Virus record (IMG/VR): IMGVR_UViG_3300005663_000119 | Coordinates: 1-38,305 of that record | DNA length: 38,305 nt | Reading direction: 5' to 3' (one strand) | DNA from: a virus | The notes under the pieces: generated by a model | What the model was told of the DNA's origin: nothing | Database searches by the model: none | What the model saw: only the letters and a program-made list of their open reading frames with translations | Program-made: the position numbers and the translations under genes | Shown: positions 53-5,184 of the stretch, in pieces | Layout of the letters: each line of letters opens with the position of its first letter | Numbering within the stretch: position 1 is the stretch's first letter

Positions 53-511
53 ATGGCGGACGTGTTCGACTTCACCACTCGGTCGAGGATCATGCGATCA
101 ATCAAGGGTTCGGGGAACCTCTCGACCGAGGTGGCGTTCCGGATGGCGATGGTCCGAGCTGGACTGCGGGGGTGGGTCCTCCAGCCCCGCGAAGTCCTGG
201 GCCGGCCTGACTTCGCTTTCCTGGAAACGAAGATCGCGATCTTCGTCGACGGGTGCTTCTGGCACGGCTGCGCGCGGCGCGGATGCAGGAAGCCGCCGAA
301 AACGAACGTCTCGTACTGGCTCGCGAAGATCCGCAGGAACCGCGCAAGAGACCGTTCGGTAAATAAAAGGCTGAGAGACGAAGGCTGGATTCCGCTGCGG
401 ATAGCAGAGCACGAGCTCAGGGACGGCGAGGCCTGGCGCATCGTCAGGCTTGTCGCGGCCAACGTCTCGGTCATGCTTCAGCTTCAAACGAGGGAGACAC
501 ATGGAACATAA
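53..511 (+). CDS. vsr: Very-short-patch-repair (Vsr-type) mismatch endonuclease
   Basis: 152 aa, about the length of E. coli Vsr, which nicks next to the T of T:G mismatches left when 5-methylcytosine deaminates. The N-terminus MADVFDFTTRSRIMRSI matches the family start. The core GRPDF (Asp53, catalytic metal ligand in the family) and FVDGCFWHGC (His71) is visible, then WLAKIRRNRARD and a C-terminal RD.GW..LRI stretch. It sits directly before a cytosine-5 methyltransferase, the usual Vsr partner. The same frame is open upstream to base 2, so the protein could begin before the window, but homology favours the ATG at 53. No clear RBS sits immediately upstream; AGGGAG at 21-26 is rather far. Confidence 0.9.
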   Translation: MADVFDFTTRSRIMRSIKGSGNLSTEVAFRMAMVRAGLRGWVLQPREVLGRPDFAFLETKIAIFVDGCFWHGCARRGCRKPPKTNVSYWLAKIRRNRARDRSVNKRLRDEGWIPLRIAEHELRDGEAWRIVRLVAANVSVMLQLQTRETHGT

Positions 512-634
512 GAGAATACCCGATCCGAAGTCTTCCGGCCCGCTGTTCGAACCGGAGAACATCGAGCTGTGCGACGGAGGCGGGCTCGACGAGCTGCGCA
601 AGCAAGGCGCGGTAAACAAGGAGGGGGTGCTCAC

Positions 635-1657
635 ATGGGCGGAAAAGCAGGGGATGAGGGATCGGAACGGGTCGTGGCTCTTCGTTCCAGATCCGGAGAA
701 CTGTTCGTCGCCTCTCTCTGCGCCGGGGGGGGAGGGATGGACATGGGAGTCAGACTGGCGATACCGGATGCTCGCACTGTCGTGTACGTGGAGAGAGAGC
801 TCAGGGCCGTCCGACTTCTGGAGACGCGTATGCTCGAAGGAGCCCTCCATCCGGCGCCTATTTGGCCTGATCTCAAAACCTTCGACGGCCGACGCTGGCG
901 TGGATGCGTTGATCTCCTCACTGCGTCGTATCCGTGCCAGCCGTTCTCGCAAGCCGGGAAGCGTCTTGGCGAAAAAGATCCGCGGCACTTGTGGCCCGAA
1001 GTCGCTCGCATCATATCTGAAAGCGAGGTCCCCATGGTTCTCCTTGAGAACGTCGCAGGCCACCTTATTCTCGGATTCTCCACCGTACAAGGGGACCTTC
1101 AACGAATGGGTTACCGGCACGCTGCAGGATTGTTCACGGCGGAGGAGTGCGGGTTCCCGCATCTTCGTAAGCGGCTCTTCTGTCTCGCGGTCAAAGGAGA
1201 GGAACTGGATGACGCCATGCGCGGTGGACTTCGAAAGCCTGCCTCCGGCCACTCTCGTGGCGTCCGCGAAACAGGAGAAGCAGTTGCAGCTGGGTGCGCA
1301 GGTGAGGATGTGGCCGACGATCGGCGACAGGGAGGGAACGGACAAGGGGCTGTCGGCACCGGGACTGCAGGAAATCGCGCGGCTGTGGCACCCGGAGGGG
1401 CAGACGTTGTTCAAGGATGGGGACACGCCCCCCCGCCATGCGAGGGTGCAGGAGATAGGTGGAAGGAAATTCTTGATCAGCGGCCGGACCTTACTCCTGC
1501 GGCTGAACCCGAGGTTCACGGAGTGGCTTATGGGATGGCCAGTCGGTTGGACCGACTTGACCGGCATCACGTTCTCGGAAACGCAGTCGTCCCGCTGGTC
1601 GTCGCTCATGCGGTCTGTTCTCTCTGGATCAGGCTGATGGAAGGAGACGAAGATTGA
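635..1657 (+). CDS. DNA (cytosine-5-)-methyltransferase
   Basis: 340 aa. Transfers a methyl group from S-adenosylmethionine to C5 of cytosine. Family motifs appear in order: motif I LCAGGGGMDMG (residues 28-38), motif IV YPCQPFS with catalytic Cys101, motif VI LENV, motif VIII RKRLF, and motif X LGNAVVP near the C-terminus. The start at 635 is preceded by AAGGAGGGGG at 618-627; an in-frame ATG at 569 lacks such a site. The gene probably protects phage DNA from host restriction. Its stop overlaps the next gene. A second reading frame inside it (1209-1637) also looks like methyltransferase C-terminal sequence, so the final third carries two plausible codings. Confidence 0.93.
   Translation: MGGKAGDEGSERVVALRSRSGELFVASLCAGGGGMDMGVRLAIPDARTVVYVERELRAVRLLETRMLEGALHPAPIWPDLKTFDGRRWRGCVDLLTASYPCQPFSQAGKRLGEKDPRHLWPEVARIISESEVPMVLLENVAGHLILGFSTVQGDLQRMGYRHAAGLFTAEECGFPHLRKRLFCLAVKGEELDDAMRGGLRKPASGHSRGVRETGEAVAAGCAGEDVADDRRQGGNGQGAVGTGTAGNRAAVAPGGADVVQGWGHAPPPCEGAGDRWKEILDQRPDLTPAAEPEVHGVAYGMASRLDRLDRHHVLGNAVVPLVVAHAVCSLWIRLMEGDED
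1209..1637 (+). CDS. Nested out-of-frame gene: detached methyltransferase C-terminal-like domain
   Basis: 142 aa, +1 relative to the host methyltransferase gene and entirely inside it. The ATG at 1209 has a very good RBS, AAAGGAGAGG at 1193-1202. The protein begins MTPCAVDFES, contains QVRMWPTIGDREG and ends with LNPRFTEWLMGWPVGWT followed by SETQSSRW. From memory of the family, the series W.TP, MWPT and LNP.F.EWLMG.P.GWT is the usual C-terminal part of many phage cytosine methyltransferases, so this frame does not look random. Options are a nested gene made by internal initiation, the product of a +1 frameshift near 1195, or a relic of an old frameshift. The frame is open upstream to 450, including an ATG at 501 with RBS GAGGGAG. 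Confidence 0.55.
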   Translation: MTPCAVDFESLPPATLVASAKQEKQLQLGAQVRMWPTIGDREGTDKGLSAPGLQEIARLWHPEGQTLFKDGDTPPRHARVQEIGGRKFLISGRTLLLRLNPRFTEWLMGWPVGWTDLTGITFSETQSSRWSSLMRSVLSGSG

Positions 1658-2401: not shown

Positions 2402-3142
2402 ATGGCTAAGAAAGCGAACCAACACTACGGCGACTTCACCGGCTTCAACAACCAAGGCGACGAGCCGGACTGCATGCTCGCCACTCTGGCAAACCTCGCC
2501 GACGTCTCGATCGACTTCGCCCGCGGCTACTACCTCGCGAAGACCGGAAAGACATGGACGCAGATGGTCAAAAGAACTTTCGGGATCTACGACTTCGACA
2601 TGGCCGTCATAATGGTCGCCAAAGACTTCGGCCTCGACTGGTTCGCCAAGGACTTTGCGAAGCATCCTTGTAGGAAAATCAAGGACACGCTCGCAGCGAA
2701 ACCCGCGAGAGAATATGAAGGAACCCCATGCCCCAAGGGCGAAGGCGCAATCCGCATCAAGGTTTACGACGACCGCCACATCGTCACCTTCAAGAACGGC
2801 TACATCTACGACTCCAACATGGATCATAGAGAAACGTGGGAACAGTGGCTTCGCAGAATGGGTCTCCACTCAGGGAACGTGAAGATTGAGCACATCTTCA
2901 AGAAGACCCAAGATCAGAACGGACGGACGGTCTACACCCTCGACGGATACGAGATCGTCGCGACCAACAGGCACGGACAGACACTCTACCAACGGTTGAG
3001 GGGAGCCAAGGGAACCAAGTACATCATCGTGAGCGAAGGGAACGAGAAGGTCGAGGGCGTGTGGAACGACAACGGACGCCTCCGCCCCTGTAAGCCGGTC
3101 AAGGGAACTTGGAATTGGGTTGACCCGAAGAACGCCCGCTAA
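2402..3142 (+). CDS. Papain/C39-like cysteine peptidase-like protein
   Basis: 246 aa from the ATG at 2402, chosen because GGAGGA at 2392-2397 precedes it; an in-frame ATG at 2345 has no RBS. The order DEPDCMLATLAN (Cys24), then DDRHIVTF (His126), then GYIYDSN (Asp137) is that of C39-type peptidases, where Cys, His and Asp form the catalytic triad, and the His-hydrophobic-strand-turn-Tyr-Asp arrangement is typical. The remaining ~100 residues are not recognised. No signal peptide is seen. First gene after the promoter at 2331; likely early, perhaps acting on a host protein. A non-catalytic role cannot be excluded. Confidence 0.55.
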   Translation: MAKKANQHYGDFTGFNNQGDEPDCMLATLANLADVSIDFARGYYLAKTGKTWTQMVKRTFGIYDFDMAVIMVAKDFGLDWFAKDFAKHPCRKIKDTLAAKPAREYEGTPCPKGEGAIRIKVYDDRHIVTFKNGYIYDSNMDHRETWEQWLRRMGLHSGNVKIEHIFKKTQDQNGRTVYTLDGYEIVATNRHGQTLYQRLRGAKGTKYIIVSEGNEKVEGVWNDNGRLRPCKPVKGTWNWVDPKNAR

Positions 3143-3169
3143 CAAGCGGCATAACAGGAGGGACGAAGA

Positions 3170-3676
3170 ATGAGACTCTACCAAAGACGACGGAGCATAA
3201 CGAGGCGGTACGGATGGCAGGGGGGGGAGCGCGCTGCGGATCTTCACGTGAAGGAAATTGACAAGCTCGACGACTTCCGCGCGCAGACGGCCAAGGCCTT
3301 CCGATACATGAGGAACGCGCGCATCATCGCGAGGCAGAACTTCTCTTGCTGCGGCAGCTGCGGCGGGTACGAGATCGCGACGGACATTCGAGCATGGAAC
3401 AAGGCGAAAAAGGACGACGCAAAGAAGAAAATCGGCGCGGCGTTCTACAGCCGGCAAGGAACCGCGAAGACACTGCGCGACGCTGAGAAAGGTGTGCGCA
3501 TCAACTTCTATAAACTTGACGGCGATGACGCCGGCACCGAGGCGGTTGGGCGTATCGTCGCGGACTGTGTGAGGCGCGCCGGACTCGATGTCGATTGGAA
3601 CGGCACCCACGCGATGACGGTCATCGCGAAGATTCGCAAGGCGTTCCCGGTGGTTCCCCCGGAGGAGCTCGGGTAG
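3170..3676 (+). CDS. Conserved hypothetical protein (DUF6891-like)
   Basis: 168 aa; RBS AGGAGGG at about 3155-3161. A basic N-terminus is followed by NFSCCGSCGGYEI, KKKIGAAFYSRQGT, and a C-terminal segment with VRRAGLDVDWNGTHAMTV. The order CC..CG, a FYS.Q.T strand, then GL.V.W.GT recalls an uncharacterised family annotated DUF6891 in bacteria, an assignment made from memory of the pattern. No enzymatic motif is evident. Same strand as and close behind the cysteine-peptidase-like gene. Confidence 0.6.
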   Translation: MRLYQRRRSITRRYGWQGGERAADLHVKEIDKLDDFRAQTAKAFRYMRNARIIARQNFSCCGSCGGYEIATDIRAWNKAKKDDAKKKIGAAFYSRQGTAKTLRDAEKGVRINFYKLDGDDAGTEAVGRIVADCVRRAGLDVDWNGTHAMTVIAKIRKAFPVVPPEELG

Positions 3677-3690
3677 TACGGAAAAATAAA

Positions 3691-3718
3691 TGTGTACAAA
3701 CTGCCAAAGTGGTATATA
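3691..3718 (+). promoter_or_regulatory. GTGGTATA promoter/operator element before a 57-aa ORF
   Basis: ACTGCCAAAGTGGTATATA at 3700-3718, with TG-N-TATATA as an extended -10-like element at 3710-3718 and a TGTGTACA stretch upstream (3691-3698). The RBS of the next gene starts only about 8 bases after the TATA box, so a transcript from here would have a very short leader. Similar to the element at 2317-2336. Confidence 0.5.
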
Positions 3719-3740
3719 TTCAATGAAGGAGGGACAGGCA

Positions 3741-3914
3741 ATGACAATTCCAATCAAGGATTTAGGGGGCATATTGACTCACCAAATAATATCAGCGCCA
3801 GACCTACCGGATGATTGGCCCAGTGGGGATGCAATTGAGGTTTTTACTGAGGCTTATCAGGAATGGAAAACCAAGGTCAACGCCCTGCTTGCGCAGATTG
3901 AGAAGGAGAGATAA
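3741..3914 (+). CDS. Small hypothetical protein, 57 aa
   Basis: Starts MTIPIKDLGGIL; RBS AAGGAGGG at 3726-3733. An upstream in-frame start at 3690 would overlap the promoter and is rejected. Codon use is AT-rich compared with its neighbours. The C-terminal half (EVFTEAYQEWKTKVNALLAQ) is predicted helical. No family recognised. The first hammerhead ribozyme begins 16 bases after the stop, so cleavage would leave this gene on the upstream fragment. Confidence 0.65.
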   Translation: MTIPIKDLGGILTHQIISAPDLPDDWPSGDAIEVFTEAYQEWKTKVNALLAQIEKER

Positions 3915-3929
3915 ATAACTATTGTTGTA

Positions 3930-3999
3930 GCCGAAACCGGGACGTACGTGAGTCCCGGTCATCGCGGAGTGCCTTCCGCGATCTGACGATGGCAGGCAC
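3930..3999 (+). ncRNA. Type II hammerhead ribozyme, copy 1
   Basis: All core parts are readable. Stem II 5' strand GCC 3930-3932; GAAA 3933-3936; stem III CCGGGAC 3937-3943 with GTCCCGG 3952-3958; U3959-C3960, cleavage predicted after 3960; stem I ATCGCGGA 3961-3968 with TCCGCGAT 3975-3982; CUGACGA 3983-3989; stem II 3' strand GGC 3991-3993 after one extra base. Loop I GTGCCT (3969-3974) is exactly complementary to AGGCAC (3994-3999), the loop I pseudoknot seen in bacterial and phage type II hammerheads. The open helix is stem II, which defines type II. It lies just upstream of the DUF932 RBS (4009-4015). Confidence 0.93.
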
Positions 4000-4021
4000 C
4001 ATCCACTTGGAGGGACAGAGC

Positions 4022-4951
4022 ATGGAAACTCAAACATCCGAACCGAGGCAAGGCTACAACAGGCTGTTCGACAGCGCGTTCAAGCCGATCACCGAGAAGC
4101 TCGCGGGGAAGGACCGGCCTTGGGAGTTCGGCGTCGGGCTCGCGGACGTGCAGTTCGCGCCGGGAGCGAAAAAGAAGGCCGTCACGTTCGAGGGTTGGAA
4201 GACGTTGTACCGGACCGACACGGGCGAGGCGCTCTCGGTCGTCTCGGCGAAGTACAAGCCGGTGCTTCACCACGACGTGCTCGACGGGATCGACTCGAGG
4301 ATCCTCGACTCGGACCTCTTCAAGGGCGTGGCCAAGGACCTCGTGCCGATGCGCCGCGTCGCGCTTTTCGAGAACGGCGCGCGGATGAAGGCGGAGTACA
4401 GGTTCCCGGCGGTCCGCGTCGACATCGGCGGCGGAGACCTCATGGACATGACGCTCAACGTGACGAACAGCATGGACCGGACGCTGTCGGTCACCTCGCT
4501 TCTCGGCGCCTTCCGCCTCGTCTGCAAGAACGGGATGATCATCGGCATCAAGTTCAACGGGTTCCGCGGCCTCCACACGAGCGGGCTCGACATTGGGGCG
4601 TTCGTCAAGACGGTCACGACCAACGCCGAGGTCTTCAAGGACAAGGTCCTTCCGATGTTTCAGGCGATGCGCAAGGCGGTAATCGGTCCGAAGACCGTCG
4701 TCGCGCTGCTTGAGCCCATCCGCGAAAAGAAGACCACCGTCTCGAAGAAGTACCTCGACATGGTGTTCGACCGGTTCTCGCAGACGTGGTCGGCCAAGAA
4801 AGAAGGGACTGTGTGGGGCCTCTACAACGACTTCACGTACATCGGATCCCACAACGCGCGCGGAGAGTTCGCGTCGACGCAGATGCTCAAGCTCGCCGGC
4901 CGCGTAGCCGAACAGGCGATGGAGATCCCCGCGAAGAGACGCGCCGCATAG
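4022..4951 (+). CDS. DUF932 family phage/plasmid-like protein
   Basis: 309 aa; RBS GGAGGGA at 4009-4015. Family features are SVVSAKYKPVLHHDV near the N-terminus, TSLLGAFRLVCKNGMI in the middle (the FRLVC.NG signature) and WGLYNDFTYIGSH near the C-terminus. DUF932/TIGR03299 proteins are common on phages and plasmids, and their biochemical role is not established. What is unusual is the setting: a hammerhead ribozyme immediately upstream and another beginning five bases after the stop, so the coding region can be excised as a monocistronic RNA (3961-4982). Confidence 0.85.
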   Translation: METQTSEPRQGYNRLFDSAFKPITEKLAGKDRPWEFGVGLADVQFAPGAKKKAVTFEGWKTLYRTDTGEALSVVSAKYKPVLHHDVLDGIDSRILDSDLFKGVAKDLVPMRRVALFENGARMKAEYRFPAVRVDIGGGDLMDMTLNVTNSMDRTLSVTSLLGAFRLVCKNGMIIGIKFNGFRGLHTSGLDIGAFVKTVTTNAEVFKDKVLPMFQAMRKAVIGPKTVVALLEPIREKKTTVSKKYLDMVFDRFSQTWSAKKEGTVWGLYNDFTYIGSHNARGEFASTQMLKLAGRVAEQAMEIPAKRRAA

Positions 4952-4955
4952 GACA

Positions 4956-5022
4956 GGCGAAACCGGGGCGACCGCCCCGGTCATCGGAGGGTCGGCTCCT
5001 CCGGTCTGATGAAGCCAGCCGA
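4956..5022 (+). ncRNA. Type II hammerhead ribozyme, copy 2
   Basis: Stem II 5' strand GGC 4956-4958; GAAA 4959-4962; stem III CCGGGGC 4963-4969 with GCCCCGG 4974-4980 (GACC loop); U4981-C4982, cleavage predicted after 4982; stem I ATCGGAGG 4983-4990 with CCTCCGGT 4998-5005 (one G-U); CUGAUGA 5006-5012; stem II 3' strand GCC 5014-5016 after one extra base. Loop I bases TCGGCT (4992-4997) pair perfectly with AGCCGA (5017-5022). Stem II and the pseudoknot differ from copy 1 in compensatory fashion, which supports the fold. The RBS of the next gene (5025-5034) follows directly. Confidence 0.93.
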
Positions 5023-5040
5023 ATAAAAGGAGGAATGCAA

Positions 5041-5184
5041 ATGGCTAGAGTTTCAATTTCTATCGCGTTGGAATTTCACGAATATTTGAAACTGGAGAAA
5101 ATCGCAGAATGTCGAGGGGCAAGTCCGCTGATGTTGATCAAGTCATTGATCACAAAATTTATAAAAGAGGAGAATGATACATGA
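5041..5184 (+). CDS. Small ribbon-helix-helix-like DNA-binding protein
   Basis: 47 aa; RBS AAAAGGAGGA at 5025-5034, ATG at 5041 preferred over 5035 on spacing. The sequence fits the Arc/CopG pattern: a short N-terminal strand (ARVSISIALEF), a helix (HEYLKLEKIAECRG), a turn of the GASP type and a second helix (MLIKSLITKFIKEE). Such proteins bind inverted repeats as dimers of dimers and often repress transcription. It is a candidate, by inference only, for a regulator of the GTGGTATA elements. Its ATGA overlaps the next gene. Confidence 0.6.
   Translation: MARVSISIALEFHEYLKLEKIAECRGASPLMLIKSLITKFIKEENDT

Follow-up and report, generated by a model that had tools for sequence, protein, structure and literature searches.

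The window analyzed here is the whole of IMG/VR virus record IMGVR_UViG_3300005663_000119 (38,305 nucleotides (nt), hereafter the 38.3-kb record). Its portal and terminase genes lie on the minus strand, and its left end is a cluster of small plus-strand genes. Near this end, a plus-strand gene of the DUF932 family is flanked by two type II hammerhead ribozymes in the same orientation. The two ribozymes are found by scanning the window with the Rfam covariance models (cmscan), among which RF02276 (Hammerhead_II) has a gathering score of 37. Copy 1 (positions 3929–4001, plus strand; 47.8 bits, E = 6e-7) and copy 2 (4955–5024, plus strand; 47.1 bits, E = 1e-6) each exceed this threshold by about 10 bits, with predicted cleavage after C3960 and C4982, respectively. 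Nothing else in the window reaches threshold against Rfam, and the two copies are the only ones detected there by our custom hammerhead descriptor. The sequence-only reading of this DNA had called both motifs type II pseudoknotted hammerheads and proposed an Infernal search with the Rfam type II model as a check; these scores, together with the base-by-base comparison below, confirm that call.

Two hammerhead copies around a DUF932 gene

The invariant core (CUGANGA, GAAA, U16.1, and H17) is complete in both copies, at 3933–3989 and 4959–5012. In copy 1, stem II pairs GCC (3930–3932) with GGC (3991–3993), GAAA and CUGACGA occupy 3933–3936 and 3983–3989, and C17 is position 3960. Stem III comprises 7 base pairs (bp; 3937–3943 with 3952–3958) plus A15.1–U16.1, stem I comprises 8 bp (3961–3968 with 3975–3982), and GUGCCU (3969–3974) forms a 6-bp pseudoknot with AGGCAC (3994–3999). 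In copy 2, stem II pairs GGC (4956–4958) with GCC (5014–5016), GAAA and CUGAUGA occupy 4959–4962 and 5006–5012, and C17 is position 4982. Stem III pairs 4963–4969 with 4974–4980, stem I (4983–4990 with 4998–5005) has 8 pairs including one U–G, and the 6-bp pseudoknot joins UCGGCU (4992–4997) to AGCCGA (5017–5022). The order of the segments and the cmscan alignment assign the type II topology to both copies, with stems I and III closed and stem II open.

The GAAA and CUGANGA segments, the stems, the U-C cleavage sites, and the 6-bp pseudoknots are thus all present where the sequence-only reading had placed them. However, it overlooked an additional nucleotide where CUGANGA meets stem II (U3990 in copy 1 and A5013 in copy 2). 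The 10.1–11.1 pair, which is adjacent to A9 under the strict criterion of Perreault et al. (PMC3088659), here forms past this nucleotide. An extra nucleotide at the same junction, mostly U, is found in 29 of 50 phage copies whose search pattern ignored the feature. The exchange of GCC/GGC for GGC/GCC in stem II, with pairing kept, had also been taken as covariation; in accordance, the two copies differ by compensatory double changes at 5 pairs, and their loops are unrelated.

The DUF932 gene (4022–4951, plus strand; stop codon 4949–4951) encodes 309 residues. The protein matches PF06067 (E = 4e-16; 59.9 bits against a curated cut-off of 23) and phrog_1221 (5e-18), whereas its score of 36.3 for the TIGR03299 subfamily is under the cut-off of 110.7. 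Its AlphaFold model has a predicted local distance difference test score of 74.7 and a predicted template modeling (TM) score of 0.71, and a PDB fold search with the model returns nothing below E = 1e-3, at a TM-score of about 0.3. The likely start is 4022, with a likely Shine–Dalgarno (SD) sequence, GGAGGG, at 4009–4014 (plus strand). A longer start proposed by the open reading frame (ORF) finder, at 3989, lies inside copy 1 and lacks an SD sequence.

Both ribozymes are intercistronic. Copy 1 begins 15 nt past the stop codon of a small upstream gene (3741–3914, plus strand; listed as an ORF from 3690, with SD GGAGGG before 3741), a candidate member of the same transcript, and ends just 5′ of the SD sequence and start codon of DUF932. 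Copy 2 begins 4 nt past the DUF932 stop codon, and right after it comes the SD sequence (GGAGG) of a small downstream gene (5041–5184, plus strand; 47 residues), whose product has no match in protein family searches.

Hammerheads at gene junctions of other phages

Searches of viral contigs with the DUF932 and portal proteins of the window find no close relative. Therefore, Roseobacter phage homologs are used for the alignments. A search of genome contigs with the DUF932 protein finds no relative, and the best terminase match among named phages has 33% identity. DUF932 homologs are collected by protein sequence, with ribozymes disregarded. DUF932 adjoins a hammerhead in six lineages, and the comparison with other phages proposed by the sequence-only reading recovers the same pair: in two other unrelated phages (L104 and L145), hammerheads flank DUF932 on either side. 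The Roseobacter phages CRP-3 and CRP-212 and the related contigs L104, L106, L108, and L113 have a type II hammerhead immediately behind DUF932, then one gene, and another hammerhead. The DUF932 proteins of CRP-3 and CRP-212 are 72% identical, and the hammerheads behind their genes differ by 8 compensatory double changes with no broken pair. L104 has an additional hammerhead directly 5′ of DUF932, which gives a bracket like that of the window. In L145, hammerheads identified by Rfam at 2412–2480 and 3593–3663 bracket DUF932 at 2501–3586, within a stretch of nine hammerheads in 6 kb. The single hammerhead of the 81.6-kb L130 record lies directly upstream of DUF932, as does one hammerhead each in L088 and L089, two phages picked up by their ribozymes rather than by DUF932.

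With seed records excluded, Rfam-level hammerheads occur in six DUF932-seeded records, each of which has one beside DUF932, and are absent from 72 of the 78. Of 69 DUF932 clusters, 12 have a hammerhead within about 2.5 kb, compared with none of 34 C5-methyltransferase clusters (Fisher p = 0.008), a comparison that uses one control gene, includes the two seed loci, and counts weaker matches without Rfam confirmation (L135, type I; L146–L148, L151, L152, and L191, without pseudoknot). For adjacency in 5 of the 6 lineages, the estimated p ranges from 6e-6, if all junctions are equal, to 0.004, if each phage has 20 eligible junctions, with approximate gene counts. These figures suggest that hammerheads may favor DUF932 beyond their usual presence in this region of phage genomes.

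In L080, L082, L106, and L108, a conserved leader with CACCTNATAAAGTGCTTG or a sequence near it lies just 5′ of DUF932 and has no hammerhead, whereas the upstream hammerhead of L104 comes directly after an upstream gene. This contrast suggests that the upstream ribozyme is confined to phages in which another gene precedes DUF932 in its transcript.

Beyond DUF932, a pattern scan of viral contigs followed by the custom descriptor identifies 168 type II hammerheads at a score of at least 15 outside the window (802 kb) and none in block-shuffled sequence. The descriptor missed 5 of the 9 L145 copies and the L130 copy, all recovered by Rfam, and the Rfam model missed the upstream copy in L104. Therefore, the hammerhead counts are lower bounds. 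Among 183 distinct copies, with a median spacing of 694 nt, every locus with at least two hammerheads (42 of 42) has all copies on one strand. The hammerhead starts at most 25 nt from a stop codon in 66% of cases (12% for random positions) and is followed by an SD sequence and start codon in 89% (33% for random positions).

The highest whole-record counts with the Rfam model are 17, 12, 12, 11, 9, and 9 per phage. Dense one-strand arrays of 9–17 copies, roughly one per gene, occur in Streptomyces and other phages: L091 (G028:3000–16500), L095 (Alvy), L070 (Salutena), and L145. G028 has about one hammerhead per gene across 9 kb. The 11-copy phage is the cultured Streptomyces phage Alvy, whose hammerheads are unannotated; between 40.1 and 51.9 kb of its genome, all six annotated gaps of at least 60 nt contain a hammerhead, the last one partly. 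Alvy coding sequence 84 (25 residues, 50036–50110) overlaps the ribozyme at 50022–50084. Across 54 orthologous junctions of five Streptomyces-type array phages, the ribozyme is present in both phages at 8, in one at 4, and in neither at 42.

Proposed transcript processing and its alternatives

The identity, position, and sense orientation of the motifs, and their conservation and covariation in relatives, are direct observations, from which we infer the following. Both motifs would be active type II hammerheads within one transcript that spans the small upstream gene, DUF932, and the small downstream genes. Each ribozyme would cut itself after its UC and together they would free a DUF932 mRNA of 1,022 nt (3961–4982, plus strand), as predicted from hammerhead chemistry. 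The excised mRNA would begin with a 5′-OH, followed by the stem I hairpin with its pseudoknot and then the SD sequence, and would end in the GC-rich stem III hairpin bearing a 2′,3′-cyclic phosphate. The upstream mRNA would gain the same type of hairpin at its end; the hairpins at the two predicted 3′ ends have folding energies of −16.1 and −17.3 kcal/mol. The likely benefit is that a polycistronic phage transcript would be split, independently of RNases, into single-gene mRNAs with protected ends, each of which could be translated and decay on its own.

We consider such processing of a co-transcript into a single-gene DUF932 mRNA with protected ends probable, because the cores are complete, the Rfam scores are above threshold, and the copies share one strand, each following a stop codon and preceding the SD sequence of the next gene. 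In addition, orthologous junctions keep their ribozymes with compensatory changes, the Alvy gaps are filled, and the predicted 3′ ends are hairpins. An intrinsic terminator function of the stem III hairpins was rejected because no T-run follows them; the terminator scan lists none there. Two promoter-like sites (2308–2336 and 3693–3720, plus strand) share TGTACA and GTGGTATA; the second, just 5′ of the small gene preceding copy 1, may be the start of the ribozyme-bearing transcript. Further left in the window, a Vsr mismatch endonuclease gene (53–511, plus strand) adjoins a C5 cytosine methyltransferase gene (569–1657, plus strand).

Several points weigh against this interpretation. L110 and CRP-3 have DUF932 proteins of 85% identity, but the gap behind the L110 gene has no hammerhead; a simple GGGGG/CCCCC hairpin (about 3263–3300) is in its place. 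The ribozyme is therefore not obligatory for DUF932, and its benefit is not essential. Loss of the core in close relatives that keep the gene was one outcome that the sequence-only reading had named as refuting its call. L110 matches this outcome in part, which weighs against a strict dependence of DUF932 on the ribozyme and not against the fold: the ribozyme recurs at DUF932, though the gene does not need it. The nested-only fold of copy 1 favors an alternative pairing (−35.7 kcal/mol). In this competing non-hammerhead fold (3930–4008, plus strand), the loop I strand pairs downstream; the modeled fold could make cleavage slower or subject to control. With the additional nucleotide next to stem II, the window copies might not have passed the strict screen applied in 2011 (PMC3088659), although such a nucleotide is frequent among phage copies.

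The main alternative to mRNA processing is that the pair yields a circular DUF932 RNA, the 5′-OH and cyclic-phosphate ends being joined by RtcB or by back-ligation of the hammerhead. Two same-strand hammerheads would leave precisely the ends that RtcB can join, retrozymes follow the same logic as outlined in PMC4918200 and PMC7761336, and RtcB is encoded by 2 of 47 hammerhead phages (G016 and G035, the records of L024 and L048). However, RtcB is absent from this phage, although the host could supply it, and from 45 of the 47 others, and Perreault et al. sought circular and spliced products and found none (PMC3088659); we regard circularization as very unlikely. A retrozyme-like element is not supported in the window, as the copies are not near-identical flanking repeats but have diverged, with 5 double stem changes and unrelated loops.

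Another reading treats the hammerheads as mobile or selfish RNA elements that move among intergenic sites, which would make the pair at DUF932 incidental. The pseudoknot sequences common to copies within one phage (L091), the approximately 30 nt shared by the hammerhead 5′ of DUF932 in L104 and the 3′ one of CRP-3, and the gain and loss of hammerheads among related phages fit such spread. The exact placement of copies between stop codon and SD sequence, their retention at orthologous junctions, and the pairing kept through compensatory change do not, which leaves an incidental pair unlikely, although spread and function are mutually compatible. Control of cleavage by a ligand, a protein, or translation, switching DUF932 expression, would draw on the competing fold of copy 1 and on the overlap of its 3′ part with a possible ATG at 3989; yet there is no conserved domain besides the hammerhead, the loops are freely variable, and no nearby riboswitch is detected with Rfam, so that regulated ribozymes appear highly improbable.

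For transcript processing, the arrays raise a broader proposition: some double-stranded DNA phages may follow a general self-dicing program, with hammerheads after nearly every gene of a block, DUF932 as a preferred cargo, and the window pair as a minimal version. Their cuts would divide a co-transcript into mRNAs of one gene each, with non-standard ends protected by hairpins. We consider the case for such a program evenly balanced.

Relation to known hammerheads and other self-cleaving RNAs

What role bacterial and phage hammerheads play is regarded as an unsettled question (PMC6155905). The present comparison narrows it, as hammerheads are found where mRNAs adjoin, in sense orientation, and kept at orthologous junctions with compensatory change, in numbers that can reach one per gene. 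Because they occur in cultured phages whose hosts have been isolated (Streptomyces phage Alvy and Roseobacter phages CRP-3 and CRP-212), their role is experimentally testable. The recurrence of DUF932 provides a comparison of the same gene with and without the ribozyme.

Consistent with the sequence-only reading, type II pseudoknotted hammerheads were known earlier from prophages: Perreault et al. (2011) described type II hammerheads with a loop I pseudoknot, as well as single genes of prophages flanked by hammerheads (PMC3088659). Tandem hammerheads of other prophages cleave themselves in vitro, and the Agrobacterium ardA set does so also in E. coli (PMC3088659). The window shares with these systems the type II fold, the pseudoknot, and the flanking of single genes or short blocks, for which transcript processing was proposed; its two same-orientation copies flank DUF932, and the phage record also encodes portal and terminase. 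The prophage systems differ in that the cargo named includes ardA and the gene identities are not constant (PMC3088659). No paper in the open-access library searched mentions DUF932 and hammerheads together, in line with the earlier claim that the pair is undescribed for DUF932; the flanking of single genes, however, was published in 2011, and the layout of hammerheads around a single phage gene is already known in outline since then. The present analysis adds DUF932 as a recurring cargo, counts per phage that reach 17, and the comparison of orthologs; of these, the dense arrays and the repeated association with DUF932 may be new with respect to the open-access papers searched.

Among other self-cleaving RNAs, the window copies, like many phage copies, differ from RF02276 by having one nucleotide more on the way from A9 to stem II. 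A natural hammerhead with an extra core nucleotide exists (De la Pena and Flores 2001, as cited in PMC6155905), but it belongs to a viroid RNA and not to a type II motif of phages. Gut phages likewise use small self-cleaving RNAs, the theta ribozymes, to trim transcripts, but these have a fold like that of hepatitis delta virus and act at tRNA 3′ ends (PMC10879173), whereas the copies described here lie between mRNAs. Retrozymes, as outlined in PMC4918200, also place paired hammerheads around one unit; they are plant retroelements that spread as a non-coding circular RNA, whereas the window has two diverged copies around a protein-coding gene.
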